64,000 nt of DNA from Bdellovibrio sp. GT3 (GTDB taxonomy: Bacteria; Bdellovibrionota; Bdellovibrionia; Bdellovibrionales; Bdellovibrionaceae), in contig NZ_JBBNAD010000001.1 of assembly GCF_037996765.1 (NCBI RefSeq), positions 62,001 through 126,000 of the forward strand. Direction: 5' to 3'. The translations under genes and the position numbers were made by a program. Numbering within the stretch: position 1 is the first letter of the stretch; the number at the start of each line of letters is the position of its first letter. The notes beneath the pieces were generated by a model. It made no database searches and had not been told where the DNA came from. It saw only the letters and a list, made by a program, of their open reading frames with translations. Of this stretch, positions 10,072 through 56,291 are shown in pieces.

Positions 10072-10238
10072 CTGTGAATTCTATTCGGTTTTTTAGTGAA
10101 TGCTCATGACTTCGACTGGATTAAAAAGTGTTCCATAATTGGAAACGTTGTTCCCGTGTTAAAATTGAGGGAGCGGTAAGTGGGTGTAAGCCCTCGGGAT
10201 CTCTGGATAATACTGTTCAGGTACACAATAATGTTTTC
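10072..10238. promoter_or_regulatory. Divergent intergenic region between kinase and HTH regulator genes
   Basis: The 167-bp gap must hold two outward promoters. On the minus strand TAGAAT lies six bases before the kinase ATG. On the plus strand AATAAT lies six bases before the ATG at 10239. The -35 matches are weak on both sides and neither gene has a clear Shine-Dalgarno sequence. A short GAGGG/CCCTC pairing around 10167-10195 could form a loose hairpin. Confidence 0.4.
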
Positions 10239-11042
10239 ATGCAAAACCAGACTATTACAGAATTCATGATGAACAAATTTGAAGAACTACGTAGAACCAA
10301 TAGACGCATTTCTTTGCGTATGGTTGCGTATAAAATCGGCATCACTCCGGGCCGATTGAGTGAATTGATTCGCGGTAAGCGACCTTTGTCAGAGTTCTAC
10401 TTTGAAAAGATCTCGACAGGATTGGGCTTGAATCAGGATGAACGCCAACAGTTGAGATCCTATATTTCTGTAACCTCCCGTCGCTTCAGTTCTGACCGTG
10501 TAGTTGGTGTGAAGAGCAATGCCATCATGGGCGGCTGGGAAGAATACGCTATTTTGAATCTGCTAAGAATTTCCAATGGCAACGATGATGTAAACTGGAT
10601 TTCTGAGCGTCTGGCATTGCCGCTAGAGGCAGTGGAGCAAGCCCTGGCTAACTTGGAAAAGATGGAATTGGTCCGTCAGGAAGAGCGTGGTTTGGAAATT
10701 GTTCATCGTCGCTTGATCACATCTTATGAGTGCGCTGGCGAAGAGGGTCGTACACACTATAAAAAATACCTTGAAAAGGCCAGTCAGGCGATGGACCTGG
10801 AGATGAACTCCAGTTACACAGGGGTAACTCTGACTATCAATCCTCAGCAAATCCCAGTGGCAGAGCGTATGATTGAGCGCTTTCGCGGCAGAATCCTGCG
10901 TCTATTGCAGCAGGGAACCCAGAGCGAAGTTTACTCCCTGAACATTCAAATGTTCCCATTGTCCGTATCCAAAGACGTTGCGAAATCGTCATCTGGAGCG
11001 AATCTGCATCAGGTGCCGCGCGTCGAACTTGATAAAGTTTAA
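10239..11042 (+). CDS. TIGR02147/DUF4423-family HTH regulator, copy 1
   Basis: A 267-residue protein of a family common in Bdellovibrio and Fibrobacteres. Residues about 12-50 look like a lambda-repressor-type helix-turn-helix (VAYKIGITPGRLSELIRGKRPLS), followed by a DUF4423-like region with a winged-helix feel (WEEYAILNLLRI, WISERLALPLEAVEQALANLEKMELV) and a C-terminal part with VTLTINPQQIPVAERMIERFRGRILRLL. The start at 10239 is chosen by alignment with the paralogue immediately downstream; an ATG at 10266 is possible. Its target is unknown, but its position ahead of the fibre genes makes them candidates. No signal peptide or membrane helix. Confidence 0.8.
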   Translation: MQNQTITEFMMNKFEELRRTNRRISLRMVAYKIGITPGRLSELIRGKRPLSEFYFEKISTGLGLNQDERQQLRSYISVTSRRFSSDRVVGVKSNAIMGGWEEYAILNLLRISNGNDDVNWISERLALPLEAVEQALANLEKMELVRQEERGLEIVHRRLITSYECAGEEGRTHYKKYLEKASQAMDLEMNSSYTGVTLTINPQQIPVAERMIERFRGRILRLLQQGTQSEVYSLNIQMFPLSVSKDVAKSSSGANLHQVPRVELDKV

Positions 11043-11055
11043 TTCGATAAGCTAT

Positions 11056-11076
11056 GGTGTCCCCTCAAGGGACACC
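11056..11076 (+). promoter_or_regulatory. Perfect inverted repeat just before the second HTH regulator gene
   Basis: GGTGTCCC (11056-11063) and GGGACACC (11069-11076) surround a CTCAA loop and end one base before the ATG at 11078. A possible promoter overlaps it (TTGATA 11029-11034, 18-bp spacer, TATGGT 11053-11058), and the purine-rich ribosome-binding sequence (AAGGGA) lies in the right arm. It could be an operator for autoregulation or a translation-blocking hairpin. Confidence 0.6.
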
Positions 11077-11077
11077 T

Positions 11078-11863
11078 ATGACTTTAAACAAGTTTTTGAG
11101 CGCCAAACTAGAAGAGATGCAAAAGAAGAACGCCCGTTTTTCAATGCGTGCTCTCGCGCAAAAAGCAGGTATCTCTCCCGGTCGTTTGAACGAGATCTTT
11201 CACGAACGCCGTCCTTTAAGTGATCACTACTCCAATAAAATTTCTTATGGTTTAAATCTGACTCAGGAAGAACAGGCTGTTTTATCCGGGTTTGTCAGCG
11301 TTCGTGCCAAACGGATGACGTCACAAAAGGTTTTGGAAGAGCAGGAAATGCGCTTGGTTACCAGCTGGGAACCCTATGCGATTTTGAACCTGATGAAGAC
11401 CGATGACTTCGACAGCTCCACACCTTGGATGGCAAAGCGCCTGGCATTGTCGGAAGAAAAGATCGATGAATGTCTTCAGCTTCTGGAATCTTTGAAAATC
11501 ATCAAAAAGAAAAATGACCGATGGCTGCGTGTGCCTGAACAGTTCACTACAACCACAGATATTCCAAGATCCGTAATCGTGGAAGGGCATGCTGCAAATT
11601 TGCGAAAAACAACGGAAGTGCTGTATTCAGTGCCGCCGACAAAGCGCAATTTTACAACCATCACGATGCCCATTAACGTGGAGAAGTTTGAGGAAGCGAA
11701 GCAAGTGATCACACAGTTCCGCCGCAAGCTTTGCCTGTTGTTGGAAGATGGTCCGAAAACTCAGGTGTACAATCTATCCATTCAATTATATCCCCTGACT
11801 GACGTCAGCGAGTCTCAATCTGAAACTCTCTGGCATCAGTCAGGGGATATAACTGAGTCGTGA
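11078..11863 (+). CDS. TIGR02147/DUF4423-family HTH regulator, copy 2
   Basis: A 261-residue paralogue of the preceding gene, colinear over its whole length: HTH (LAQKAGISPGRLNEIFHERRPLSDHY), WEPYAILNLMKTDDFD, MAKRLALSEEKIDECLQLLESLKII, and a C-terminal region with ITMPINVEKFEEAKQVITQFRRKLCLLLEDG. The ATG at 11078 is preferred because the in-frame ATG at 11054 lies before and inside the inverted repeat at 11056-11076, and the paralogue lacks the extra residues. The pair arose by tandem duplication. The 3' end of the gene holds one arm, loop and second arm of a 17-bp inverted repeat. DNA binding is inferred from the HTH; the target is not known. Confidence 0.82.
   Translation: MTLNKFLSAKLEEMQKKNARFSMRALAQKAGISPGRLNEIFHERRPLSDHYSNKISYGLNLTQEEQAVLSGFVSVRAKRMTSQKVLEEQEMRLVTSWEPYAILNLMKTDDFDSSTPWMAKRLALSEEKIDECLQLLESLKIIKKKNDRWLRVPEQFTTTTDIPRSVIVEGHAANLRKTTEVLYSVPPTKRNFTTITMPINVEKFEEAKQVITQFRRKLCLLLEDGPKTQVYNLSIQLYPLTDVSESQSETLWHQSGDITES
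11786..11852. repeat. 17-bp perfect inverted repeat in the 3' end of the HTH regulator gene
   Basis: TTATATCCCCTGACTGA (11786-11802) is repeated as its exact complement at 11836-11852 with 33 bases between. The middle can pair further (GAGT...ACTC). The structure ends 9 bases before the stop codon and TTTTTT follows at 11865-11870, so it may act as a coding-region terminator or 3' protective hairpin. Confidence 0.8.
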
Positions 11864-11987
11864 TTTTTTCCTGTTAAGGAAATGCGCAATTTTCAGAATA
11901 TAAACAGTTCAATTCAAACCTGATTTAAAAAACCGGAATTTTCGCTATGTCCTGATTTTGCATGTGGAGTTCATGGCAGGAGGGGCG

Positions 11988-12356
11988 ATGCGGATTTCTT
12001 TCAGTAAACTGGTGGTGTTTCTTGGAACACCGATAGTGATGATGGGATATCAAAACTGCGCCAAGCTGGGCACAGAGGATTTGCTGGGTGGAACATCTGC
12101 ATTTGTTGCTGACAGTTCCATCGACTTGACTTCGGTATCACCGGCAACTGAAAGCTCCGATCCATCAGCCCAAAAACTTTTGGCTGAAACCAAGCAAACA
12201 TGCTCACAAGTTTCATCTCTGGATCAGAACATGATCGAATCCTGCCTTAATTTATTCTGTCAGAACCCCCACCAGAGCAATGTCCAGGGAGGGAGTGGTC
12301 GACGTCTTTGTCACGCCCTTCAGCTAGCTTCCGCAGGTTTAGCCGATCTTCGATAA
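11988..12356 (+). CDS. Small secreted Cys-containing protein, possible lipoprotein
   Basis: A 122-residue protein I cannot assign to a family. The N-terminus is a typical export signal (MRISFSKLVVFLGTPIVMMGYQNCAKLG). The Cys after the hydrophobic stretch suggests lipidation, though Asn at -1 is not a standard lipobox; a YQNC ending of the signal region is a pattern I associate with Bdellovibrio exported proteins. The mature part is Ser/Thr-rich, then has three more Cys (TCSQVSSL, ESCLNLFC, RLCHALQL) that could form disulfides. Start ATG at 11988 is supported by AGGAGGGG directly upstream. It precedes the fibre genes on the same strand but is separated by about 230 bp. Confidence 0.7.
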   Translation: MRISFSKLVVFLGTPIVMMGYQNCAKLGTEDLLGGTSAFVADSSIDLTSVSPATESSDPSAQKLLAETKQTCSQVSSLDQNMIESCLNLFCQNPHQSNVQGGSGRRLCHALQLASAGLADLR

Positions 12357-12592
12357 TCAAACAGTGTTCACATTTGTATTCGCGTAATCATGGTTCATTA
12401 ACACTCTGTTAGGGAACGCCGTTCATAGTATCATTTCACTACTTCTTAACGACTCATTCTAAGCACTCCACACTGTTTCCCAATGATATTCGCATTATTA
12501 TTCTGGGAATTCTTCAGCAATTTCAACATTCCTCCGAAAAATAATGGAGTCAAAGTCGCTTTCTGGAATGTTTAGGAGGACGTGTGGATAGG

Positions 12593-15500
12593 ATGAAAAA
12601 TACAAGATTCTGTAAAATTCGAATCATGTTTATGTTCACTTCTATGCTCGTGTTCGGCGTAGCAAATGCAACTCCTTCCACATTTTCCTATCAAGGCCGT
12701 ATCACAGCCGCGTCGGGTGGAAGTCCAGGTTTTACCATGGCATCATTCAGCTTTTCCATCATGGTGGATAAAGCTGGTGGTAATAATCCAAACTGTACAA
12801 TCTATCGTGAACAAAAAGATCTGGTGCCCGTTTCTACTGATGGTTTATTTGATGTCGCTATTGGCGAAGGCACGTCCAACTATCCGAATGGATCTGCAAA
12901 AGTAACTGATTACATGAACAATGCCGCAACGGTGAGCTGTCTTGAAGGCGGAAGTCATCTGGTTTCCTCCAGCGATAAGCGCTTCCTGGATGTTCACTTT
13001 GCAGCAGATGGCACGGGATCGTGGAATCATATCACTCCGGCAGCTGAAATTCGTTCGGTGCCATACGCTACGAATTCTTTGACAGCTGAACGCCTGGGCG
13101 GGTTGGTTGCCACTGATTACGTCAGAAGAACAGAATTGGACACCTGTGGTGTTGGCGAGTTCCTGGCATACAATGGATCAGTATTCAGTTGCGACACTCC
13201 GGCAGGTAGCGGGGCCACTGATTCTTCTTATACTCTTAAGGGGCTGGTGCAGTTTCTGACGGATGCGGCGACTTCAGGTATCGTGGTTTCCGGTGGAGTA
13301 GCGCGTGTTAACTTCGGTACGGGTGCAAATCAAATCGTTAAACTTGATGGCACTGGCAAACTTCCTGCGGTGGATGGTTCAGCTTTGACGAATATCGTTG
13401 CGGCAAGTGCGACGACAGCAACAACGGCCACAACGGCTACGACTGCCGGTTCTGCGACAAATTTCACGGGCTCATTGGCGGGTGATGTTTCAGGAACTCA
13501 ATCTGCAACTGTTGTGGATAAAGTAAAAGGCTATCCGGTTGTAACGACGGGCGTGGCCGATGGTAAAGTTCTTAAGTATTCCAGTGGTAATCTGGTTTTT
13601 GCTGATGATGATTCCGGTTCAACGGTAGTGGATTCGTCGTATGCAGCAAAAGGTATCGTGCGCTTTAATACGGATGCTGCAACTTCAGGAGTTTCAGTTG
13701 TTGCGGGTGTGGCTACCGTTAATACCGGCACAGGTGCCAATCAAATCGTAAAACTAAACGGAACTGGCCAATTGCCAGCAGTGGATGGTTCTCTTTTAAC
13801 GAATCTTCCAACGCCAACATCTGTTGCGAATTTCTCGGGTTCTTTGGTTGGTGATGTAACGGGTACTCAAGGTGCGACAGTTGTTGAAGGTATCAGAGGT
13901 AAAACTGTTGATATGGCAGGTGTCGCAACAGGCAAAGTGTTGAAGTACGACACGGCTGCTGGCGGCAAATGGGTTTTGGGTGACGATAATACTGGTGGTA
14001 CACCGGCTGATGCGACGACTTCGTCCAAAGGTATCATGCAGGTGGGTTCGGGCCTTTCTGTGGCAGCGGGTGTGGTAAGTGTGGATGCCTCTGGCCTTGC
14101 GGTGGATCCAGCGAACTTCTCCAGTGCAGTTCCAGTCAGCAAAGGCGGTACTGGTGCAACTACGCTGACGACAGGTCAACTCCTGATCGGCAATGGAACC
14201 GGAGCCATTTCCTCCCTGGCATGTACAACGGGCCAAACTATTTCATTTAATGCTTCTGGAGTTGCAAGCTGTGTCGCTGCAACTACAACAGCTACTGATT
14301 TAACTACAATTACTGGTACGGGAATCGTGCAAAGAACGGGTGCTGGTACTTACGCTGCACTTGGCACTGCAGCTCCATTAAACGTAACTGGTACTGACCT
14401 GGGTCTTTCTTATGGCGCTGGTTTGACATTAAGTACTGGTACTTTGGTTGTTGATTCAGGCACGACGGCCGGCAAAGTTGTGGTTCTGGATGGATCTGCA
14501 AGATTGCCAGCAGTGGATGGTTCACTATTGACGAATCTTCCGGTTCCAACTTCAGTGACAAACTTCTCTGGCTCTTTGGTTGGCGATGTCACTGGTACTC
14601 AAGGTGCAACAGTTGTTGAAGGTATCAGAGGTAAAACTGTTGATATGACGGGTGTCGCAACTGGTAAGGTGTTGAAATACGACACGGCTGCTGGTGGCAA
14701 ATGGGTTTTGGGTGACGATAACACTGGTGGTGCACCAGGTGTTGCATCTTATTCAGCGACAGGCCTTGTGCAGTTTGATACCAATGCCGCCACTTCAGGC
14801 GTGATTGTGAATGGTTCCGGTGTTGCGAAAATTAACTTCGGTACAGGTGCTGATCAAATCGTAAAATTGGATGGCACCAGCAAATTGCCAGCAGTGGATG
14901 GTTCGCAATTGACGAACCTTCCGTTTCCGACTTCAGTGGCAAATTTCTCGGGGAATCTTGTTGGCGATGTCAGCGGAACTCAAGCTGCGACGGTAGTGGA
15001 TAAAATCAAAGGTGTGCCAGTAGTTACTACGGGTATTGCTGATGGTAAAATTTTGAAATATCAATCAGGCAACTGGGTTATGGCAGATGATGCTACAGGT
15101 GGTTCGCCAGTTGATGCTTCTTATTCTGCAAAAGGTATCGTGCAATTTGCCACTGATGCGAATACTTCAGGTATCTCCGTTACTGGTGGCGTTGCAACCG
15201 TAAATACAGGTACTTCTGCAAATCAAATTGTGAAAATTGGTTCTGATGGCAAGCTGCCAGCTCTTGATGGTTCGAATTTAACTGGTATCGTCGCTTCATC
15301 GTTGGCAAGTACATTAGCAATTTCTGGTGGTGGTACTGGCGCAACAACTAAAACTGCGGCATTCGATGCACTATCTCCGTTGACGACGGGTGGTGATATC
15401 GTAACTCACGATGGCACTAATAATGTGCGTATGGCTCGTGGTACAAATGGTCAGGTTCTTTCTTCCACGGCGACAGGCTTGCAATGGATCAATGCTCCAG

Positions 15501-17395
15501 CAACCGGTGTTACAAGTGTTTCTGGTACATCTCCAGTTCAGGTCGCAACCGGTACAACGACGCCGGTAATTTCCGTGGACGTGGCAACTACGACAACGAC
15601 AGGTATTGTGCAAATCGGTTCGGGTCTTTCAGTTACTGCAGGTGGTGTGGTGAGCGTTAATGCTTCCGGCCTGGCAGTGGATCCTGCAAACTTATCAAGT
15701 GCAGTTCCAATCAATAAAGGTGGTACCGGTCAGACGACAGCTGCAGATGGTTTCGCAGCCCTTTCTCCATTGGCGGCTAAAGGTGACCTTATCACTCGCA
15801 GTGCGACAGCTCCAATGGTGTTGAGTGTCGGCACCAATGGACAAGTTCTTGTGGCTGATAGTGCGGAAACAAGTGGTATGCGTTGGGGTTCCAACGTGGC
15901 AACTGAGCTGACTGGTTTGGTTTCCACTGGCATCGTGCAAAGAACAGGTGCGGGCACTTATACGACTTTGGGTGTTTCGTCTCCTTTGGCAGTTTCAGGT
16001 TCAAATATCGTGTTGAACACAGTTCCAATCGCAAGCGGTGGTACAGGTGCTACAACTAAAGCAGCTGCCTACGACGCTTTGTCGCCACTAACAACTGGTG
16101 GTGACCTGGTCACTCACGATGGCACCAACAATGTTCGCATCGCTCGTGGTACAAATGGTCAAATCCTTTCATCCACGGCGACGGGTCTTCAGTGGATCAA
16201 TGCTCCAACAGGCAGTATCACTGATGTGACGGGTACTGCTCCGATTTCAGTGACCGGTACAACGACAAAAGCCATTACAATCAGTGCTGCAACGACGGGT
16301 GCACTGGGTGCGGTACAAGTTGGTTCCGGACTTTCAGTAACTGCAGGTGGTGTAGTGAGTGTTGATGCTGCCAATCTGGCGGTGGATCCGGCAAATCTGA
16401 CAGCAGTGGTTCCTATCACTAAAGGTGGTACCGGTGCTGCGACAGCATTGGGTGGATTCAATGCACTTTCGCCAATGACGACAAAAGGTGACCTGGTCAC
16501 TAAAGATGCTTCGAATGTCACTGTGCGCTTGCCAGCGGGTTCAGCAAATGACGTTTTGACAGTGCACACTGACGGTACTCTAAAATGGGCTGCTCCAGCG
16601 GCCGGCGGTGTAACTAGCGTGTCTGGCACTTCCCCAGTGGTTGTAACAGGTACGACGACTCCAGTGATTTCAGTTAATGATGCAACTGCCGCTGCCAAAG
16701 GTATTATGCAGGTGGGTTCCGGTTTATCAGTCACTTCCGGTACGGTCAGTGTTAACTGGTCGGCGAATACAGGTCTGACTGCGAACCGCATGGTTGCAAC
16801 CAATGGTTCTGGTGGTCTTTCTGCTTATAGTTGTGCCACGGGTCAGTATGTTACTTTCAATGGTTCCGGAGATGTTGTTTGTAACAGTTTGCCGCTTCTA
16901 AATGGTGGTAACTCATATGCTGCTGCTGCAACTGTAGGTACTAACGACGCTTATGGTGTGAATATCGAAACGAACAATGCCACTCGTGTTGCGGTAACCA
17001 GCACGGGTAACGTAACTGTGAACGCGCCGACTTCCGGTGATGCTTTGGCAGTTGAGGGTTCGATTCGCGGTAAAAGCTATGCGAATGGCGCGGCTTCTGC
17101 GGTCGATTGGTCTAGAGGTAACACACAATCTATCACCAACAACTGTGCTTCGCAAATCACGTTCTCGAACATGATCGATGGCGGTGTTTATACTTTGGCG
17201 GTTACAGGTACTTTCGGAACTAATATTTGCCGCTTCGGTCAAACGTCACCGGATACTTTGTCTGGTACTGCCGGCTCGGGTGCCTTCTACTTCTTGCCTG
17301 CAGCAGCTGCGCCATCAGGTGCAAATGCAGTTTATTCCTTCATGCGAATTGGCGGCGTGGTTTACGTGAATTGGAGCAGTGGATACGCGCAGTAG
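12593..17395 (+). CDS. Giant repetitive fibre protein, phage-tail-fibre-like (candidate Mosaic Adhesive Trimer)
   Basis: A 1600-residue exported protein. It has a signal peptide (ending VFGVANA), an N-terminal domain (FSYQGRIT, FSFSIMVD, DGLFDVAIGEG, PAAEIRSVPYATNS) and a long Thr/Gly/Val-rich shaft of repeated units: NFSGSLVGDVTGTQGATVV, ANQIVKLDGTGKLPAVDGS, PxxKGGTGATT, LxxGSGLSVTAG. The KGGTGATT motif is typical of phage tail fibres. The C-terminal 90 residues are non-repetitive (NNCASQITFSNMIDGG to VNWSSGYAQ) and could be a receptor-binding tip; no chaperone-of-endosialidase tail is seen. I recall that Bdellovibrio makes trimeric prey-recognising fibres (MAT proteins) of this style; assignment here is by pattern. 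AGGAGG precedes a GTG at 12584 and the ATG at 12593; either may be used. Confidence 0.75.
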   Translation: MKNTRFCKIRIMFMFTSMLVFGVANATPSTFSYQGRITAASGGSPGFTMASFSFSIMVDKAGGNNPNCTIYREQKDLVPVSTDGLFDVAIGEGTSNYPNGSAKVTDYMNNAATVSCLEGGSHLVSSSDKRFLDVHFAADGTGSWNHITPAAEIRSVPYATNSLTAERLGGLVATDYVRRTELDTCGVGEFLAYNGSVFSCDTPAGSGATDSSYTLKGLVQFLTDAATSGIVVSGGVARVNFGTGANQIVKLDGTGKLPAVDGSALTNIVAASATTATTATTATTAGSATNFTGSLAGDVSGTQSATVVDKVKGYPVVTTGVADGKVLKYSSGNLVFADDDSGSTVVDSSYAAKGIVRFNTDAATSGVSVVAGVATVNTGTGANQIVKLNGTGQLPAVDGSLLTNLPTPTSVANFSGSLVGDVTGTQGATVVEGIRGKTVDMAGVATGKVLKYDTAAGGKWVLGDDNTGGTPADATTSSKGIMQVGSGLSVAAGVVSVDASGLAVDPANFSSAVPVSKGGTGATTLTTGQLLIGNGTGAISSLACTTGQTISFNASGVASCVAATTTATDLTTITGTGIVQRTGAGTYAALGTAAPLNVTGTDLGLSYGAGLTLSTGTLVVDSGTTAGKVVVLDGSARLPAVDGSLLTNLPVPTSVTNFSGSLVGDVTGTQGATVVEGIRGKTVDMTGVATGKVLKYDTAAGGKWVLGDDNTGGAPGVASYSATGLVQFDTNAATSGVIVNGSGVAKINFGTGADQIVKLDGTSKLPAVDGSQLTNLPFPTSVANFSGNLVGDVSGTQAATVVDKIKGVPVVTTGIADGKILKYQSGNWVMADDATGGSPVDASYSAKGIVQFATDANTSGISVTGGVATVNTGTSANQIVKIGSDGKLPALDGSNLTGIVASSLASTLAISGGGTGATTKTAAFDALSPLTTGGDIVTHDGTNNVRMARGTNGQVLSSTATGLQWINAPATGVTSVSGTSPVQVATGTTTPVISVDVATTTTTGIVQIGSGLSVTAGGVVSVNASGLAVDPANLSSAVPINKGGTGQTTAADGFAALSPLAAKGDLITRSATAPMVLSVGTNGQVLVADSAETSGMRWGSNVATELTGLVSTGIVQRTGAGTYTTLGVSSPLAVSGSNIVLNTVPIASGGTGATTKAAAYDALSPLTTGGDLVTHDGTNNVRIARGTNGQILSSTATGLQWINAPTGSITDVTGTAPISVTGTTTKAITISAATTGALGAVQVGSGLSVTAGGVVSVDAANLAVDPANLTAVVPITKGGTGAATALGGFNALSPMTTKGDLVTKDASNVTVRLPAGSANDVLTVHTDGTLKWAAPAAGGVTSVSGTSPVVVTGTTTPVISVNDATAAAKGIMQVGSGLSVTSGTVSVNWSANTGLTANRMVATNGSGGLSAYSCATGQYVTFNGSGDVVCNSLPLLNGGNSYAAAATVGTNDAYGVNIETNNATRVAVTSTGNVTVNAPTSGDALAVEGSIRGKSYANGAASAVDWSRGNTQSITNNCASQITFSNMIDGGVYTLAVTGTFGTNICRFGQTSPDTLSGTAGSGAFYFLPAAAAPSGANAVYSFMRIGGVVYVNWSSGYAQ
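13772..14004 (+). repeat. Long in-frame repeat in the fibre gene, copy A
   Basis: About 230 bp, nearly identical at DNA level to 14504-14736 (offset 732 bp). It encodes the segment from LPAVDGSLLTNLP through GIRGKTVDM to KWVLGDDNTGG. The close similarity at silent sites suggests recent duplication or ongoing recombination within the shaft. Confidence 0.85.
14504..14736 (+). repeat. Long in-frame repeat in the fibre gene, copy B
   Basis: Second copy of the 13772-14004 unit. Differences are mostly third-position changes. Confidence 0.85.
15327..15505 (+). repeat. Second repeat family in the fibre gene, copy A
   Basis: About 180 bp that recurs at 16035-16213 (offset 708 bp), encoding GGTGATTK, DALSPLTTGGD, THDGTNNVR and LSSTATGLQWINAP. 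A third, more divergent unit with PLAAKGDLITR lies near 15720-15840. Confidence 0.8.
16035..16213 (+). repeat. Second repeat family in the fibre gene, copy B
   Basis: Second copy of the 15327-15505 unit, again in frame. Confidence 0.8.
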
Positions 17396-17410
17396 TATCG
17401 AAGGATAAAG

Positions 17411-19528
17411 TTGGGGTTTGGTTTGAACGTGTTATTAGTTTTCTTCTCAGTTCTATTTGTCTCTGCGTTTTCTCATGCAGATGAGAGCTGGACCGGTGTG
17501 ACCAAAACTCCCGGCGATTACACAGCTTCAGGCATCGTCACGATCACCGGGTCTGTGACCTTGACTCCAGGGACCTATACTTTCACAACTCTTATCGTTA
17601 ACTCCAGTCGAACTTTGACCATCCAAGGTGATACTGCGGCTGGAACAGGCGTGATCATCAATGCCAATACTGTCACGGTTTCAGGTACCATCACTGGTGA
17701 TGGAGCTGGTTATACGACGACTCCGGCTCCTGGTGCGGGGGTTGCTGCCCCTACGGGCAGCGGTGCCGGAGGTGGATGTCACGGCGGTTTCGGAGGATTT
17801 CCATCAGTGGTGGATACTTGTGATCTTTATGGCGACCCATTGTATCCGACCACCTTAGGGTCCCCGGGAAAAGCGAATTCCAGTGCTGGTGCAGGCGGTG
17901 GAGCAATCAAGTTTGACGTCTCAGGAACGATGACAGTGACTGGTACTATCAGAATGAATGGTACCGACTCAACGGCCGCCGGTGTTAAAGGCGGGGCGGG
18001 CTCTGGTGGCAGCATTTGGATTAAAGCTAACACTTTAGCAGGTGCCGGAAACATTCGCGCCAATGGATCAAATAGTGCGAGTTCTCAAGGTGCCGGTGGT
18101 GGTGGAAGGGTTGCAATTCACTACTCCGTAAGTAGTTATACCGGATCGGCAACTGCCACGGGCGGAACGTCAGATGCGTACGGCCAAAGTTCAGAAGGAT
18201 CAGTTTGGTGGATTGACTACACGAACAATGATCTGCTGGTTAAAACGAATTCCACGATTCCCAATGGAACATACGGTTTTAGAAATGTGACAATACAAAG
18301 TGGCGGGGGACTTTGGAATGATTGCCATGGCGGCAAACCTCAGGCCGGCAGCGGTGCCGGCGCAACATACAATGAGTTTGGAAGTGGTGCCGGCCATGGC
18401 GGCCGTGGCGGTTTCGCAGCTGTCGCGGGTGGTGGGACCTATGGAAGTATGCTTGAGCCAATAACACAAGGCTCTGGCGGTGGTACTAACGCCAATAATA
18501 CGGTCGGTGGCAGAGGGGGCGGTGCCATCAAGCTTGTCCTGACTGGCACTCTCACTGTCGATGGCTATCTGGAGTCAGACGGATGCAGTGGGTGGTACAT
18601 GGACACCTATTATCCGGGTGGCGGCTCAGGGGGCAGTATTTGGATCATCGCTCAATCCGTGGCTGGTTCCGGGTCCATTAGTGCGGTCGGCGGCATGGGT
18701 GGCTGGGATTCCTCGAACAATGAATGGGGAGGCGCAGGGGCCGGAGGCAGAATCGCTATCTATTATTCAGATACGATCAGCTCTTCGTTAACTTATGATG
18801 TAAGCGTAGGTGCCAAAGGCTGGAAGCCCGGTTCTTTTCCTGGATCGGTAGTTCTCATTAATACAACAGCAAATGACTTAACTTTTCCGGTCACAAGTTC
18901 AATTCAAAACGGAACTTACTCCTATAACAACGTCACTCTTGCCAGTAATGCGGTTGTCACCGCAATTGATGGGCAAGGACAGAATACAGGAACCGGTAAA
19001 GGTACTTCCAATGGGACTCGTGGCGGTGGTGGTGGCTACGGCGGTGCCGGTGGTTCCGGGGGCAGCGGTGCTGCGGGAGGAACTACTTATGGGTCGAATA
19101 CTGCGCCCGTGGACTTGGGTTCCGGTGGCGGTGGTTGTACCTCTCCAACTTTAGCCGGAACTGGTGGCGGAGCATTGAAATTTATTGTTAGTAACACATT
19201 AACGATCAACACGGGTGCGGTCTTGTCTGCATCGGGTTCAGATAAAATTGATGCCAATCGTTGCGGTGGTGGTTCTGGGGGAAGTATCTGGATTCAGACA
19301 AAAAACCTGACTTCGGTAACTGATGGAATTGTTGCCAAAGGTGGCTCGGGCTTCGATGGCACCAATAACGGCGGTGGCGGCGGTGGCGGTCGTATTGCTA
19401 TCTATTATTCCGGAAGCTACTCAGGAACGCTAAACGTTTCTGGTGGTACCGGTAACGTAGCCGGTAGCACCGGCACAACTTACTTGAAGCAACTTGCTTC
19501 ATCACTGTGGTTCTTCCGCGGCTATTAG
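17411..19528 (+). CDS. Exported Gly-rich beta-repeat protein, partner of the fibre gene
   Basis: A 705-residue protein with a signal peptide (LLVFFSVLFVSAFSHA). The mature chain opens with a beta-rich stretch (GIVTITGSVTLTPGTYTFTTLIV) and then three rounds of a roughly 180-residue Gly-rich module: a GGCHGGFGG-type loop, GGGAIKFDVSGTMTVTGTIRMNG, GSGGSIWIKA and GGGGRVAIHYS. This pattern suggests a right-handed beta-helix or stacked beta-solenoid with Gly loops. The start is TTG at 17411, with AAGGA at 17401-17405 giving normal spacing. It begins 15 bp after the fibre gene stop, so the two are almost certainly co-transcribed. Function unknown; a structural or surface role is inferred. It ends convergently, sharing three bases of stop codon with the next gene. 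Confidence 0.75.
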   Translation: MGFGLNVLLVFFSVLFVSAFSHADESWTGVTKTPGDYTASGIVTITGSVTLTPGTYTFTTLIVNSSRTLTIQGDTAAGTGVIINANTVTVSGTITGDGAGYTTTPAPGAGVAAPTGSGAGGGCHGGFGGFPSVVDTCDLYGDPLYPTTLGSPGKANSSAGAGGGAIKFDVSGTMTVTGTIRMNGTDSTAAGVKGGAGSGGSIWIKANTLAGAGNIRANGSNSASSQGAGGGGRVAIHYSVSSYTGSATATGGTSDAYGQSSEGSVWWIDYTNNDLLVKTNSTIPNGTYGFRNVTIQSGGGLWNDCHGGKPQAGSGAGATYNEFGSGAGHGGRGGFAAVAGGGTYGSMLEPITQGSGGGTNANNTVGGRGGGAIKLVLTGTLTVDGYLESDGCSGWYMDTYYPGGGSGGSIWIIAQSVAGSGSISAVGGMGGWDSSNNEWGGAGAGGRIAIYYSDTISSSLTYDVSVGAKGWKPGSFPGSVVLINTTANDLTFPVTSSIQNGTYSYNNVTLASNAVVTAIDGQGQNTGTGKGTSNGTRGGGGGYGGAGGSGGSGAAGGTTYGSNTAPVDLGSGGGGCTSPTLAGTGGGALKFIVSNTLTINTGAVLSASGSDKIDANRCGGGSGGSIWIQTKNLTSVTDGIVAKGGSGFDGTNNGGGGGGGRIAIYYSGSYSGTLNVSGGTGNVAGSTGTTYLKQLASSLWFFRGY

Positions 19529-46069: not shown

Positions 46070-46355
46070 CTATATATAGTTTCACTTTGTGTGTTTGAAT
46101 TCACTGTATTGCCGGGGTGTCACGGTCGGCTGGGGGAGCAGCCAGAGTCGAAAGTGTTCGGCATATTTCGGTGGGCGCTCACCGAATGAAAAAGTCTTGC
46201 GGCCTTTTTGAGCAAAATATGCCCTTATCTTCACTACGTTTAAGTACACCCATTTTTTCACCGGAAAAATGTTCGAAATTCTCAGACTGTACCAACGGAG
46301 GGCGCTCAAGTTGCGGAAATTCCAATAATATTCGCGTAATTATAAAATGAATGTC
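46070..46355. promoter_or_regulatory. Divergent intergenic region of the surface-protein cluster
   Basis: The gap between the FecR/Ig gene and the FG-GAP operon must contain both promoters. No convincing -35/-10 pair is seen for either direction. TATAAA occurs immediately before the first FG-GAP start codons. A small open frame across it has no ribosome site. Confidence 0.4.
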
Positions 46356-49300
46356 ATGAAACATTTCCTCCTGGGTTCGTTAATAGTGTTATCAGGATAT
46401 TTGCTGTCGTCGTGCAACAACGCTGGCTTGCAAGGCACTTCCATTCCTTCGAAGTTTGAAGGTGTGTCGGAAGCCATTGCCATCTCTCCAACAGCGGTGA
46501 AGCTTTCTTGGTCCTTGCAGGCTCGTTTCAAAGAATATCGCATCTATCGTAAGGGATTTAACACTCCTGATAAAATTGAAACCTTTGCCACGACAACGAT
46601 TGCCCCCTTGGCGACGGATACCTACTACGATTTTGCAGTCACAGGTGTAGAGGCAGTTGGTGGTGAGGAAATCGGTTATGATAAGTATATCACCGTAAAG
46701 ACCATGAGTACTTTCACAGGTGTTCCAGCCTCTGGCTTGACGGCGCAGTCCAACGGTTCTGTCGAGGTTAATTGGATCAAAAACGGTGAAGGTGTCACTT
46801 ATAGAATTTATACCAAACGCGAAAATGAAACTTGGAATTTAACTTCACCAGCGGCCACGATTTTTAACCGTAGCGTTGGGACCGTCACGAATCTGCCAAG
46901 TGGTAACAAGTATTGTTTTTGGGTGATGGCACATTATCAAGACGGAACTTTTGAGCCTGCCAATATGTCCGAGGCATATATCAACTCGAAAGCGCCATGT
47001 GTGTTGGTACAGTCTCAGCTGGCCAATCTGCCGACGGTGAAAATTCAAATGGCTATCGTGGGGAATTTCCCATGGTTTTGGACCGAAGGTGGCGACTCCA
47101 CTTATACGACCGAGATTTTTGAGCGCTCCACCGGGATTCGTTGGGCGATCGTAAACGGGAATGACTATTTCCGTTCAATTGTTCCAATTAATCCGGGTCA
47201 AAAGGACATGTACGCCAAAGTGACATCCGCAGCGGGAGCCAGCACCATCGTCACTGTTTTGGTGGAGGGTACCGGTCAGCTAAAAAAGCCGTTAATTCGC
47301 TCCTTGGAAGGTACTTCAGCGCCACTTCCTCTTTATCCGCGCCTGGTAAATGGCGGACTGGGTATGCAGGAGCTGGGAGCTCAAGTTGTAACGGGTGATT
47401 TCAATTGTGACGGCTTGATGGATGCGGCGGTAAGTGCACCGCGCGCAACGGCTTACGTCGGAGACAGTCCTCAGGACACGACCGGTGCTGTGGTTATTTA
47501 TTATGGATACGATGCACCTCCTACATATGATGCCAATGGAAACATCGTCGATCCTCCTCCGGCTTTGAATATGACACCGGCTCCGAACGCGGATGCCGCG
47601 TTTCCGAATCCGCAATTGGTATACTACCCAGGTCTCGCCGCAGGCACTCGCTTGGGTCAGCGCTTGGCGGTCGGGAACATTAATAATGACTGTTTCAGTC
47701 GCTATACGGATCTTGCCGATCCAAAGGCAAATAAAGTCGGCCTGTGTGATAACTTGTTCACACCGGCTTCTGGTGTTTCTGATATCGCCAAAGTTAAAAA
47801 AATATATACCTGTGACGATTTGGCCATGATGACCAATCAAGGTCAGGTCTTCGTCGCATTTGGAGATCCTACTCGCGGATTGGTCAGTGGTTCTGGTGGT
47901 ATTTCCTACGGGGTAAATGAAACGACTTGCGATCCGACATCGTTCAAGTGCCGTCCGGTGCGGGTCTCGGAATCCAATGCCTACAATACAACTGCAATTG
48001 CTTTTGGTGACTATAATAATGACGGCTTTGATGACCTGGCGGTCGGGATTACGACTTGGGTTTCGCCAAACTACAAACGTCAGGTCACGGTTCTGCGCGG
48101 TGATCGCATGGGACTTATTCCATCCGGAACCGTGAAGTCCTTCCCCACCATTGATGCGGAAACGATTCCCCTTGCTTCGTTGGTCGCGGCAGATGGCACT
48201 TTCGTTGGCAAAAGCTACACCGAGGATTTTGCCCGAGCTGTCGGGACCGCTTATAATTCCCGAGTCTGTGAAAACAGCGGCACCTATACATTCCGGCAAA
48301 CAGGTATCGCCGGAGAGACTTCTCCAGCACCGAAAAACAAAGGTTATGATTTCACAAAATGTGACGACCTGATCATCGGGGCTCCGGCTCGTTCTTTGGG
48401 CCGTGGTTCGATCCTGGCATGTAAAGGTGAAATGCCAACGATCGCGAGCGGCGCGACGGATCTGCAAAAAATCATCTCTTGGACTTGCAAAGAATCTTAT
48501 CCGGATCTGGCAAGCAACTCGGCGGCCGACTATATTTCGGTTCAGGGTTATGGAACCAGCATCCTTGGAGTGCCAAATCAGAATGGTTATCCTTTAACAA
48601 ATATCATCGGAACAACGAACAACGTACCCAATGTAAATGGAACAGTGTTCGTGGGTGCACCACTGTCCTCTGTTAGCGGGCAGGCGAGTGCCGGTGTGGT
48701 GTTTGGTTACTATGTCACTCCAAGGTCCAATGACAATGCCACGGGCGGGATTTATGGAATTCTGGATCAGCAACAGGAAGTCACTGCCATCAATACCGTC
48801 GCCTGTGACGCTCGTAACACAAATGTGACGACGGGGGCATTGAAGCACTGTGAAAATCAGCTGATTCATACCAATCCTCCAGAAGCCGGTGTGCAGTTTG
48901 GACTTGCGATGGGGACTGTTGCTGATATCGAAACGATATCTCGAAACATGCCTTCACTGGCGATCTCTGCACCTTATCGTGCAACCACAGCTTCCACGGG
49001 GAGTTCCACAATTACAGCCAGTGGTGTGATCTACCTTTATAAACCGGATGTTTCGACACTGGGTTATGAAGGAGCCACTCGTATTGATACGCCTCGCTTG
49101 TCGGATAACGACAATACTGTGTGCTCCACCAATTGCACATGGTACAGCGGTGGTGTGAATCCATTCGGGGCTTCGGTCATTTATCCCCGTGATCTTTCAC
49201 CCAACTCGAATTTTGGTTTGGGTGGAGCCGTTGGGGCGGACTTCAACGGTGACGGTTCGGGCGACGTGATTGTTGGCGCTCCTTATCATTCCTCTCCAGT

Positions 49301-51047
49301 ATATTATAACGGTGCGACGTTTATCTTTAATTCCACGGGCAACTTCGCATCGTCGGTGACCAACGCCAATCAGACGATCAATGTGAACTTCAGTAAAGAG
49401 CTGAACTATCGTTATGAGCGTGCCAAAGTGGCGGGTGATTTCAATGGCGATGGCTACATGGATGTAGTGACGCAGATTTTTGTCGGTAATACGGTTGAAA
49501 TGGTTATCTATTACGGCAGTGCGAACGGTTTGGTGGTGACACCGGAGCCGTCACGAGTTCCGTTGATGGAATTGGATCCACTGAAACTGGTCGTGGATTT
49601 GGATGTTGGATTTGGCGGTGAATTTTATCGCGTCGGCAGTGTCAATGGTGATGCTTACGACGATGTGATGGTTGTCGGAAATCGCTCCTCTTATGTATTC
49701 TATGGTTCTTCCGGGGGATTGGTTGCGAACACCACTCCGTCCGTTTCACCGGTCGGGAATAATCCGCTGAGCTTTGCCTTTGCTGATATAGATTCCGTTT
49801 ACTTTCACAGTGTCGGAATCAGCAAAAGAACAGCAGCGAACACGGTTCCAGATTCTATTTTATACGAGGATTTCAACCCAAGAAACCGTGCTGTCACATA
49901 TGGTGATTTCAATGGTGATGGCTTTGGGGATTTCACAGTGGCTGCCGACAGCATTGATTTGCCATCAACAGCAGTGCGCGTCGGTTCCCTGCAATATACG
50001 ACTGCGAATTTTGGCCGGGTCTATGTGTTCTATGGATCCAAAGACGGCCCGCAGGTTAATCGTTCGAACGGTCGAACTCTTCTGAGTGACAGCCTGGGCA
50101 ATGCTGCGGATGTGGTGATTGAAAATCCCTGCACGATGACAACGCCGGCAGTTTGTAAAGTACAGATGCTGTTGTCGAACGAGGCCGCTCCGGGAGGCAT
50201 ACGCTTTGGCTGGAGCACTGCCTCTGTTAAGTCTTTGGAGACTCAATCCGGGGAAATTTACGATGAGCTGGTGGTCGGTGATCCTGGTTATTCATCCTAC
50301 AAGGGACGCGCCTATCTTTATAAAGGAACGAACCGAGGATTGGCTTATACGCCAGCCCAAAAAATCGAAGGCTCAGCGGCAGCTGAAGGGTTTGGTTACA
50401 GTGTTGTTGCGCCTGGAGACATCAACAAAGACGGCGTCGCTGATTTGGTGATCTCAGCACCGCGTACGAGCTCGCCAACTGTTTACACTTTCTTTGCTGG
50501 CACCGTTGGGACAGTGATGGCCTTCAAAGGCGCGCCAGATATAAACTCAACAAATTATTTTGGCGCGGGCGCACTGGCTATCAATACTTTGAATGCAACA
50601 AACCAGGACTTAAAACCCCAAAGATCTTCTCCGGATTTATTTCAAGGAAGTACAGATCATTTTGGTGTGGGCGTGGCTGCAGTTGGTGACCTTAATGCTG
50701 ACGGATATGCCGATATCGTCGTCAACGTGCCGGGCCGTGACTATGATTTGGATACGGTTTTGGCCAACACCGGTGCCTTCGTTGTTTATTATGGCGGCGA
50801 GTATGGATTGAAAATTGATTCGTCGCCTACAACGACACCTCGCTGTTATGGAGGTACGACGCCAGTTTGTGAACCGGCGCTTTTGTATCTGCCAAACCGT
50901 CAGGCCAATGAACATACATACATTTCAAGCACACCTGCGGGTGATATCAACGGAGACGGAATTCCTGATATTTTAATGGGAGCTCCGGGACGCAATCATC
51001 CATCTGGAAAAGCCTTTGCTACGGGAGTCGTTTATGTCCTTTATTAA
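46356..51047 (+). CDS. Giant FG-GAP/FnIII lipoprotein, copy 1
   Basis: A 1563-residue lipoprotein (lipobox LSSC in MKHFLLGSLIVLSGYLLSSCNN). Residues about 25-310 are FnIII-like domains. From about 340 to the end there are many FG-GAP repeats of integrin-alpha type, each with a Ca-binding D-x-N-x-D-G loop: GDFNCDGLMDAAVSAP, GDYNNDGFDDLAVG, ADFNGDGSGDVIVGAP, GDFNGDGFGDFTVA, GDINKDGVADLVISAP, GDLNADGYADIVV, GDINGDGIPDILMGAP, and YYG-type strands. These should form one or more seven-bladed propellers. The ATG at 46356 is used; 46347 is an alternative. First gene of the operon; it overlaps the next by 14 bp. Confidence 0.85.
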   Translation: MKHFLLGSLIVLSGYLLSSCNNAGLQGTSIPSKFEGVSEAIAISPTAVKLSWSLQARFKEYRIYRKGFNTPDKIETFATTTIAPLATDTYYDFAVTGVEAVGGEEIGYDKYITVKTMSTFTGVPASGLTAQSNGSVEVNWIKNGEGVTYRIYTKRENETWNLTSPAATIFNRSVGTVTNLPSGNKYCFWVMAHYQDGTFEPANMSEAYINSKAPCVLVQSQLANLPTVKIQMAIVGNFPWFWTEGGDSTYTTEIFERSTGIRWAIVNGNDYFRSIVPINPGQKDMYAKVTSAAGASTIVTVLVEGTGQLKKPLIRSLEGTSAPLPLYPRLVNGGLGMQELGAQVVTGDFNCDGLMDAAVSAPRATAYVGDSPQDTTGAVVIYYGYDAPPTYDANGNIVDPPPALNMTPAPNADAAFPNPQLVYYPGLAAGTRLGQRLAVGNINNDCFSRYTDLADPKANKVGLCDNLFTPASGVSDIAKVKKIYTCDDLAMMTNQGQVFVAFGDPTRGLVSGSGGISYGVNETTCDPTSFKCRPVRVSESNAYNTTAIAFGDYNNDGFDDLAVGITTWVSPNYKRQVTVLRGDRMGLIPSGTVKSFPTIDAETIPLASLVAADGTFVGKSYTEDFARAVGTAYNSRVCENSGTYTFRQTGIAGETSPAPKNKGYDFTKCDDLIIGAPARSLGRGSILACKGEMPTIASGATDLQKIISWTCKESYPDLASNSAADYISVQGYGTSILGVPNQNGYPLTNIIGTTNNVPNVNGTVFVGAPLSSVSGQASAGVVFGYYVTPRSNDNATGGIYGILDQQQEVTAINTVACDARNTNVTTGALKHCENQLIHTNPPEAGVQFGLAMGTVADIETISRNMPSLAISAPYRATTASTGSSTITASGVIYLYKPDVSTLGYEGATRIDTPRLSDNDNTVCSTNCTWYSGGVNPFGASVIYPRDLSPNSNFGLGGAVGADFNGDGSGDVIVGAPYHSSPVYYNGATFIFNSTGNFASSVTNANQTINVNFSKELNYRYERAKVAGDFNGDGYMDVVTQIFVGNTVEMVIYYGSANGLVVTPEPSRVPLMELDPLKLVVDLDVGFGGEFYRVGSVNGDAYDDVMVVGNRSSYVFYGSSGGLVANTTPSVSPVGNNPLSFAFADIDSVYFHSVGISKRTAANTVPDSILYEDFNPRNRAVTYGDFNGDGFGDFTVAADSIDLPSTAVRVGSLQYTTANFGRVYVFYGSKDGPQVNRSNGRTLLSDSLGNAADVVIENPCTMTTPAVCKVQMLLSNEAAPGGIRFGWSTASVKSLETQSGEIYDELVVGDPGYSSYKGRAYLYKGTNRGLAYTPAQKIEGSAAAEGFGYSVVAPGDINKDGVADLVISAPRTSSPTVYTFFAGTVGTVMAFKGAPDINSTNYFGAGALAINTLNATNQDLKPQRSSPDLFQGSTDHFGVGVAAVGDLNADGYADIVVNVPGRDYDLDTVLANTGAFVVYYGGEYGLKIDSSPTTTPRCYGGTTPVCEPALLYLPNRQANEHTYISSTPAGDINGDGIPDILMGAPGRNHPSGKAFATGVVYVLY

Positions 51048-54000
51048 TCTGGTAAAATGGGCTCTTCTCAGCACCGCGATCGTAACGACTTTGGCCTGCA
51101 CGGAAAAAGTTGAAACCGGAAGCGTACTTAAAGATTTCTCGGGTGTGGCGGGGGTGGAACCTTTGTCGCCCACCGCTGTGCGGGTTTATTGGAATCTTCA
51201 TGATCGCTATCAGAACTACAAGGTATTCAATAATACCTCCAACACCGCATTGGTGGAAACACCTCGTAATGAAGCCATTATTCGTAACTTGGCACCAAAT
51301 ACGTCCTACACGTTCAAAGTCATTGCGACGGACGGTACGGTCAGTGTCGGAGGAAACAAAGAGATCACCATTTCAACCCTGACACCATTTCCTGGGGTGG
51401 ATAAAGTTATCAAGGACTCAGATGGCAATCTGGTTTTATCATGGAACTATGCTGCCAAAGTCGCTTCCTATCAGATCTTTGTAAAAAAATACGAAGACCC
51501 GACGGCGGCTAACACGAGTAACTGGGCAAATGTTGATTATACTTCTTACGACACGCGCTATGTTTTCCGCAATATGGAAGGGTCGACACGTTTTCACTTT
51601 GTGGTTCAGGTAAAGTACCTTGATGAAACCATTGGCTATGCCACCAAAGCCGTCAATGTCAGCACGAACTCTTCGTTTCCCACACCTGCATACTCCTTAA
51701 GTCCTATTTCGATTGGTTCATTGCCTTTTGTAAAAGTCACTCCGGTGGTGAATTCCACTTATAAAAATGAAAACTATGTTTCCCGTATGTACTCTGGAAG
51801 TACACCGATCTCGGATCCTATCACGGGGGCGGGTACCATCGTGTTTTCTCCTGGTACCGGTGTTACCAACGGAAAGGTCGAAAACCTTTCTTTGCAGGTG
51901 AGCTATACCGATGCCGGTAAAACAGAAACGCTGGTCTTCGATAAACTGAGTACGTACATCAAGGGGATTTTGGGATTGGATGCAGTCCCTCCACTTAAGA
52001 ATGTGGATTCGGGAATTGCCTTCATGGGTGAAGCGTCGACGACGGGTGATTTCAATTGCGATGGATATCCTGATTTGGCGGTCGGTCTGCCATCTGTTTC
52101 TGTGACATCTGCAGGTGTGGCCGCTCCCAGAGCGGGAGCGGTTTATGTTTACTACTCGGTTAGAAACCCCTCCACCGGTATTTATAAATTAAATACTTCA
52201 GGGACACCAAGCCGCAGTCCTATCAGTCCGGGATCTGATCCGCAGCTTTTGACATTTGAAGACTTAACGGAATATTCAAGATTCGGTAAGTCACTTTCTG
52301 GCAGTGGTAATTTGAACGGTGACACATTGTTGGGCAATGCCTGCCAGGATCTTCTGGTGGGAGCTCCGGGTTACAATACAGCGAACACATCAAGAGCTGA
52401 CAAGAACTATGATGGTGCAGCCTTTGTGTTTTTTGGAAGTTCCAGAGGTTTGACGGCTCCTTCACGCGTCAAAGATATGCAGCAGAACGTGGAAACCTGT
52501 AATGGTCTGGTGGAAAACGCGACCTGCTCGGCAGCGATGTTGTGGCCGAATATGGCGATTTTGCCAAGCACTGAAATCAACCCGACAGCAATGACTTTGG
52601 CGGATGATCCCCAATTCGGGTTTGCGACGTCCTTCATCGGCGATTTCAATGCCGATGGTTATGATGATATCGCCGTTGGTGCGCCGACGGCATCTTGGGA
52701 TGGAGTGGCTGATTCGACTGCTTCCGGTAATGCCCGAATTGTTCTAAAGGTCGGTTATGTGGCCGTCTTCTTTGGTTCAAAAAATGGGTTGGGGTATGAG
52801 ACTCCAGCAGCTGATGCGAACAAAAAATTCAGATTTTTAAAAGTCTTTTCTCCGAATCCGCACGAAGGACAGTTTTTTGGTTACTCTATTGCCGGTGGTG
52901 CTGATGTGGACGGTAAATTCCGCATTCGTAACAAACAGGATCAACTAGTGGGCGGGTCCGACATGATTGTCGGGGCCCCGGGTGATCGTTATCCACAAAT
53001 GACTACATTGCAAAAATTGAGATTATTGGGTGCTTGCAATCCGGGAAGTGGTGATTGTGCTTCGTATGGCTTCACCAACGGAGGTTGGGGCGGTTTTTCC
53101 AATGACTCTACAGGAAATAGTCACTACTTCGGTTTGCCCACCAACGCCGGAACGTCTGCCAAAGTTGGTGACGTAACTGGAGCCGCCTATTTGTTTTTTG
53201 GTCGCGGCGCTGATACCGCACCCGCTCCGGGAGTGCAAGAAAGTCCCTCGCGCATGGCATTCTGGGGGTGCAGTACGCGTAAGATGTCAGTTCCCGGCGA
53301 ACACTATTCTTGTCTGGTAAATTCCACTGGGGCAAAAGTTTTATTTCCACGCAGTGGCTATAAATCCAACGGGACCTATAAGCTAAAAAATCTGGGCTTT
53401 GGCTCCTCTGTCGCCTTGGTCGGGGATCCATCTCGCTACAATAACAACAATGCGGTAATTACGACGGTGTCGGATCCAAACGGTGACGGCTACGCTGAAG
53501 CGGTTGTGGGTGTGGGACTGTTTTCGAACTTTGCAAACGAACAATCGGGCGCATTGTGGGTTTATTACGGCAATCCATTCAGACGGTATGAATTCAATGA
53601 CTTCTACCAATTGGATTCGGTAACTCCAACTGATAAAAATCTGGATTGGAATGATGGACTTGCACAATGTACGGCATTCACCACAGATAATGCGCCCACT
53701 CGCCAAATGTGTGCGCCGACGCTGATCCGTAGTAATTCAATTGGTTCCTACTACAATTTGGCACTTCATCCGGAAGGAATGGCAGTTGGCGATGTGACTG
53801 GCGACGGACTGAAAGATGTCGTCGTGGGGGCCGTGGGTGATCAGACCAAAGGTACCTATTCCGGAGCCGTGTATGCATTTACAAGCTTGGCGGGAGCAGG
53901 GATCACCACGAACTTCCTGAAGTTTTATAATTCCTCAGCCCGCGAGTACGACTACATGGGGCGCTCGGTGGCCGTGGGAAATTTCGACGGTGACTTTAGT

Positions 54001-56268: not shown

Positions 56269-56291
56269 GAGAGTTTAAGGGGACGGGGATT

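Follow-up and report, generated by a model that had tools for sequence, protein, structure and literature searches.

A Mosaic Adhesive Trimer gene and its Gly-rich neighbour in Bdellovibrio sp. GT3: a candidate fibre with an exchangeable head

Introduction

What does a gene for a Gly-rich repeat protein do directly behind the gene for a predator's adhesive fibre? The question arises in the window, by which we mean the whole stretch of 64,000 nucleotides analysed here (Bdellovibrio sp. GT3, NCBI RefSeq assembly GCF_037996765.1, contig NZ_JBBNAD010000001.1, positions 62,001 to 126,000, forward strand). Here a fibre gene of the Mosaic Adhesive Trimer (MAT) family is followed by a gene for a predicted beta-solenoid. 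On balance, we read the two as an adhesin in two pieces on the surface of a Bdellovibrio-type predator, composed of the fibre and a separately encoded, exchangeable head. The new point is the pairing of MATs that carry a DW-GN tip with a separate downstream partner gene.

Prey-range recognition by Bdellovibrio-type predators is an open question. The main text of the MAT paper (Caulton et al., 2024; PMC10769870) describes the N-terminal domain (N-domain), ends with and without S74, display on the cell surface and tips that differ in fold, and assigns prey recognition to the fibre's own tip. Unlike in that account, a partner gene lies directly downstream of the window fibre; that main text uses neither ‘operon’ nor ‘glycine-rich’. 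In the literature searched on Bdellovibrio, MATs and related fibre terms, we found no description of a downstream partner of MATs.

The fibre and its partner

The pair lies on the forward strand and has the following parts, with the evidence in brackets.

12584..17395, +: MAT fibre gene (open reading frame (ORF) call, MAT N-domain profile, repeats)
12641..13132, +: conserved MAT N-domain, residues 20-183 (NF053851.1 Bdello_MAT_N, E 6.2e-38)
13133..16984, +: repetitive shaft (internal repeats)
16985..17392, +: C-terminal tip of DW-x-GN type with two conserved Cys (tip-family comparison)
17400..17405, +: GAAGGA, ribosome-binding-like, 5 nt 5' of the TTG at 17411 (sequence)
17411..19528, +: gene of the predicted Gly-rich beta-solenoid partner, 705 aa, TTG start, proposed fibre head (ORF call, AlphaFold2 (AF2), fold comparison)
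19508..19525, +: C-terminal WFFRGY of the Gly-rich protein ([FM]FRGY ends all eight family members)

An earlier note, made from the letters of this DNA, had described a 1600-residue repeat protein followed 15 bp later by a 705-residue one. Both ORFs are present: the fibre runs to 17395 with 1603 aa from the GTG at 12584 or 1600 aa from the ATG at 12593, and 15 bases (17396-17410) separate its stop from the second gene at 17411-19528. Five KGGTGATT-type repeats, which the note had also reported, start at residues 520, 916, 1045, 1152 and 1280 (1603-aa numbering), and there are many further repeated words. The likeness to MATs that it had pointed out was confirmed by profile search, which found a fibre-family homologue: the curated NCBIfam profile NF053851.1 (Bdello_MAT_N) scores 130.1 bits on the fibre, with a cut-off of 60. 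At least one such domain occurs in 52 of the 59 genomes searched and six in the genome of the window, compared with none in 14 control genomes. Nothing in Pfam or PHROGs matches the long fibre protein, and Pfam finds no S74 domain in it. Like the NS74 subgroup of the family, it has the N-domain, a signal-like start (hydrophobic, judged by eye), a repeat shaft and an exchangeable tip without S74. By the N-domain profile the first protein is a MAT, a member of a known family and of the non-S74 kind, and it would form a trimer.

The last ~130 residues of the fibre, with DW-x-GN and the two conserved Cys, define a tip family common to other fibres at 22–72% identity; relatives are encoded in the viral contigs L223, L225 and L226. 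The core of this tip has no solved relative by sequence, also among the solved MAT tips, and the match to Bd2133 is mainly to the capping-loop part. When the weak model of the tip monomer was compared with known folds, the seven top-ranked matches (Z 8.1 to 6.0) were all phage tail or spike proteins, a resemblance that is suggestive only. The shaft is ~22% identical to that of the fibre at locus L069 (genome G035), and the tips are 60% identical.

Pairing of tip and partner

The earlier note had proposed a search for the gene pair in relatives. Order and close spacing of the fibre and the Gly-rich gene are kept in two more genomes of the genus (L064 and L066), and the same tip type with a longer Gly-rich gene was found again in another genus (L069), so the pair is not a chance arrangement. 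When the tip was used as query, 27 of the 59 genomes yielded 51 matches. By their coordinates, the four closest (61–100% identity) all adjoin a Gly-rich gene, and none of the other 47 does.

A set of 146 MAT ORFs was assembled from 133 N-domain places (107 merged regions), ten other loci and the window. A tight partner is an ORF of at least 200 aa on the same strand that begins between -120 and +60 relative to the MAT stop and is no shorter than any opposite ORF there. All 12 DW-GN MATs have a tight partner, whereas of the 134 other MATs 20 do (Fisher 1.8e-9); the twelve include orthologues and form seven groups by partner homology. Among 30 loci from the tip search, a set that overlaps the twelve, 23 have a partner of at least 100 aa.

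A fresh test used a tip-profile search of the class (143 genomes) and drew on the first 40 places of its listing that fell in previously unused genomes. One place was dropped for too little downstream sequence, and frames open at the end of a stretch were counted. A partner was present at 25 of the 39 tip loci versus 60 of 210 ordinary genes (Fisher 3e-5), the baseline being drawn from 22 loci of the same group, where genes of 200 aa or more were counted; against other MATs, the fresh rate gives Fisher 7e-9. Because 25 of 39 fresh loci have a partner, the pairing rule for DW-GN MATs holds at 64% rather than 100%. The viral contig L225 has the same order, a DW-GN fibre and an overlapping LamG gene; L223 has a gene without Pfam match directly downstream of its fibre, and L226 has none there.

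Tip and partner can also be seen to change together. Genomes G011 and G022 are 90.2% identical in DNA from the fibre shaft through the two upstream regulator genes and 92.1% identical on the far side, beyond the Gly-rich gene. Between these conserved flanks, positions 9544-13049 of L064 have no collinear match in G011. The fibres share 50–60 of 60 residues per block up to residue ~1140 and 10/42, 19/55 and 15/45 near the end. Where the Gly-rich gene would be, G011 has a gene of 377 aa and an RCC1 protein of 772 aa, and one edge of the replacement is only 7 bp away from the stop codon of the Gly-rich gene. The MAT tip end and the whole Gly-rich gene have been exchanged together in the sister genome.

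Partner families

To judge by their sequences, the partners are mostly exported proteins of unrelated, often lectin-like or adhesion-like families. Pfam matches above the cut-off are as follows.

LamG: L079, L265, L218, L395
RCC1: L197, second gene of L232, L389, L409, L412
NHL: L207, L379
Kelch: L208, L376, L378
DUF5122 propeller: L201, L383, L402, L404
DUF6242: L234
TSP1: L276
Gly_rich_2: L255
ALK_LTK_GRD, Gly-rich: L205
FGE-sulfatase: L212
DUF1554: L385

These families account for 13 of the 21 proteins scanned in the earlier set. From the fresh set 24 of 26 partners were scanned; 11 belong to the listed families, 4 have sub-cut-off matches only and 7 have none. The partner in L202 looks by eye like a methyltransferase. 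At another MAT locus in the genome of the window (L076:3887-10287) and its G021 counterpart (L079:9343-14948), the fibre is followed by a LamG-type protein ending KHQKCN.

In many partners the signal peptide is followed at once by an aromatic peptide, for example GAFWQQ, GAFWKR, VGFWQC or LFFRGL. The pattern was defined from the first set and left unchanged for the fresh loci, with a crude test for signal peptides. It occurs in 13 of 26 exported-looking partners of the first set, one of which (L078) is probably a membrane protein, and in 4 of 21 fresh partners versus 8 of 339 exported-looking other ORFs (p 0.003); these background eight include the RCC1 protein encoded downstream of the MAT in G011. 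The Gly-rich protein of the window lacks the pattern at its N-terminus and ends in WFFRGY, which from its likeness to the N-terminal aromatic peptides may be the same device. In the Bd2133 crystal, as described in the main text of PMC10769870, each tip trimer binds a single hexapeptide, on a different tip fold. This could be a precedent, by analogy, for a peptide-binding pocket on a MAT tip.

The Gly-rich protein

The second protein had been noted as a Gly-rich beta-repeat protein, which is borne out by its Gly content (23.5%), by three ~220-aa repeats seen by eye and by the AF2 model. With 30 rows, AF2 gave a nearly all-beta solenoid with long Gly loops at a predicted local distance difference test (pLDDT) score of 89.1 and a predicted template modelling (pTM) score of 0.88; the last four residues have a pLDDT below 50. 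The protein is thus confidently predicted to be a beta-solenoid, and it looks exported.

Foldseek against the PDB found no match to this model at E 0.001 or better. In a second fold comparison beta-helical exoprotein domains rank first, and the best solved matches are the two-partner/type V exoproteins EtpA (Z 13.0, root-mean-square deviation (rmsd) 4.0, 234 residues), HMW1 (Z 11.8, rmsd 2.7, 165 residues) and HpmA (Z 10.9, rmsd 2.8, 134 residues). Unlike TpsA exoproteins, the Gly-rich protein shows no TPS secretion domain in its sequence, as Pfam gave no family for it up to E 0.1. The AgmC N-terminal domain (NCBIfam NF047640) gives a weak local match of 17.7 bits, below its cut-off of 275, and a literature search on AgmC found nothing. 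Six structural matches in BFVD at E 0.001 or better include giant-virus collagen-like and PA14 proteins. A phage or plasmid origin was rejected after no match was found in phages (tblastn against 50,697 phage records, low-complexity filter on), plasmids or viral contigs.

The earlier note knew of no counterpart to this protein, a view that has to be given up: a scan of genome contigs kept 76 loci with the module, in many phyla, and there are paralogues that are not beside MATs. At a limit of E 1e-25, only 4 of 140 genomes from the order encode close relatives, eight proteins in all. Four of these are directly behind a MAT or MAT-type fibre (the window, L064, L066 and L069); the L069 fibre runs off its contig and its N-domain was not checkable. 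All eight end in [FM]FRGY despite differing lengths (705–1868 aa) and last domains. When 30 of 34 FRGY pattern matches in the 59 genomes were inspected, this end was found in a long frame only in the Gly-rich family, which supplies seven of the 30; the eighth member, G000 C6:417616, was known from another search. The other frames inspected are 72 aa or shorter or have no stop. Since the pattern count in the genome of the window (6) did not exceed that in a reversed control (8), the signal lies in the reading frame and not in the count. FRGY as a general sorting signal was rejected because, among the 30 matches inspected, long frames with this end occur only in the Gly-rich family.

The longest member, of 1868 aa (L068:6084-11690), has extra repeats and an FFRGY end. 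A 2432-aa protein of G019 (L071:1921-9219) has stretches like the Gly-rich module and no FRGY end. In the viral contig L222 (4320-6220), a fibre-like gene precedes a short Gly-rich gene, an order as in the window with unrelated genes.

Surroundings of the pair

Three genes upstream of the fibre complete the locus.

10128..11042, +: regulator-like gene 1, TIGR02147/DUF4423 (PF14394 1.2e-29; TIGR02147 93 bits)
11054..11863, +: regulator-like gene 2, TIGR02147/DUF4423 (PF14394 1.5e-45)
11958..12356, +: small lipoprotein-like ORF with GYQNC at about residue 33 (sequence, by eye)

Both tandem regulator-like genes are syntenic in L064, L066 and L232. A profile search found 32 TIGR02147 match pieces in the genome of the window, so two such regulators beside one MAT mean little; one piece precedes the Gly-rich paralogue at G000 C6:415462 by ~1 kb. 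The lipoprotein-like ORF has no family above the cut-off in Pfam or NCBIfam and has homologues, 34–38% identical, in the same place in L064, L066 and L232. It is a possible candidate for a fibre anchor at this locus alone. An upstream lipoprotein as a general MAT anchor was rejected, since a survey of 35 scripted loci (MAT located in 26 or fewer) found a lipobox-like upstream ORF in L004, L005 and L058 only. Downstream of the Gly-rich gene, an ORF on the opposite strand ends at 19525. Promoter- or terminator-like signals in the region are no more numerous than in shuffles, and a single transcript was dropped as a claim from such evidence.

Three other MATs are of interest for their shafts or ends. 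The gene of a 506-aa MAT (L302) ends in CTAT and AAGC tetranucleotide runs, as phase variation or decay of the gene would lead one to expect. Two paralogous MATs of 385 and 387 aa in one genome (L335 and L342) both break in the shaft at ACCAAGTGA, after which the frame continues in another phase; the shared break is possibly due to repeat recombination. Elsewhere in the window, three adjacent giant ORFs of 1566, 1750 and 2063 aa lie at 46347-62483, the first two with FG-GAP repeats and fn3, as in integrin-like surface proteins.

Discussion

How might the two proteins work together? Both would cross the inner membrane by signal peptides. The MAT N-domain would stay at the predator surface, three chains would build the shaft, and the DW-GN tip would hold the partner as an added head that meets prey or another surface. 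Many partners may be held by the short aromatic peptide that follows their signal peptide (GAFWQ, FRSNVGFW or LFFRG), and the Gly-rich protein of the window by its conserved C-terminal WFFRGY instead. Swapping the tip-plus-partner cassette would then change what the fibre binds. A wider version of the proposal extends to DW-GN MATs generally: the tip would be a socket for a downstream exported head of almost any adhesive fold, plugged in by an aromatic peptide at its mature N-terminus (FW type) or its C-terminus (FFRGY), with tip and head forming one cassette. We put this wider version forward tentatively, as possible but doubtful.

The gp38 gene of phages stands beside the gene for the trimeric fibre, and the Gly-rich gene of the window adjoins a fibre gene in the same way as in T2-type gp37/gp38. 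According to passages in PMC12892980, T2-type gp38 is a Gly-rich tip protein with a beta-helix part on the gp37 fibre trimer. The window partner is likewise Gly-rich and is predicted to be a beta-solenoid; gp38 also has variable segments between its Gly motifs. In five Gly-rich members conservation is 0.89 at Gly columns versus 0.66 at others, a difference of which structural Gly would give part anyway, and the lowest-conservation blocks lie between Gly motifs. Unlike gp38, the partner has 705 aa and a signal-like start, and the phage-record search gave no sequence relation between the two; gp38 has a poly-Gly II lattice, and the model of the partner is a beta-solenoid with long Gly loops. The absence of solved gp38 from the Foldseek list for the Gly-rich model is not evidence against the likeness. 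By analogy, the fibre and head may work like T2-type gp37-gp38.

Several results weigh against the two-piece adhesin. Seven of the 30 earlier tip loci and 14 of the 39 fresh ones have no tight partner. Not all partners look like adhesins: two fresh ones are an AAA/DUF4143 protein and a desaturase, that of L220 is a PMT_2 membrane protein, that of L078 looks like a membrane protein, and that of L211/L232 looks by eye like a TPR enzyme. Four of the eight Gly-rich members (L065, L067, L068 and L070) are not beside a MAT. The tip monomer model, a beta-sandwich, is weak (pLDDT 61.9). Covariation between tips and N-terminal peptides of partners was not significant, with 601/5000 and 802/5000 permutations reaching the observed value. 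The first version had 41 rows, with Gly-rich pairs and non-exported partners excluded beforehand; several of its peptide windows were badly cut and the L203 residues were not the tip. The second had wider windows and 40 rows. A post hoc class test of six FRx..FW peptides gave 93/5000, with homologous heads in four of its pairs. Finally, linked genes can be swapped jointly without interacting, and we infer, rather than observe, tip–partner contact, surface position and prey binding.

The earlier note had left open whether the second protein is a tip, a coat or an assembly partner. The 12/12 and 25/39 counts and the joint replacement favour a tip or partner; coat and chaperone are kept as rivals. 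Co-transcription of two surface proteins that act independently, with the Gly-rich one as a separate adhesin or coat, would fit the paralogues away from MATs, the module's spread over many phyla and the FRGY end kept even in members without an adjacent MAT. We nevertheless think this unlikely, as partner linkage depends on tip type and tip and partner are replaced jointly. A chaperone or assembly factor for a fibre without S74, absent from the finished fibre, is suggested by T4 gp38, which passages in PMC12892980 describe as a fibre chaperone released after assembly. Close gene pairing fits such a role, and the DW-GN MATs seen here have no S74-type ends. However, a chaperone of one tip family should be conserved, whereas the partners have many unrelated extracellular-binding folds and are mostly exported, which makes this role distinctly improbable. 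It is more improbable still that linkage by descent and horizontal operon exchange explains the pattern without functional coupling: of the four Gly-rich pairs, three represent a single syntenic locus, and recombination carries neighbouring genes along, yet the pattern spans unrelated partner families and recurs in new genomes.

If the wider version is right, predators could change which prey they recognise by exchanging entire heads in addition to tips, and mild phenotypes of single-MAT deletions may be reread. It would be a bacterial parallel to phage gp37-gp38, with heads from many fold families. The paired gene offers a direct experimental handle. If many MATs carry separate heads, the recognition repertoire of these predators would be larger and more modular than described.

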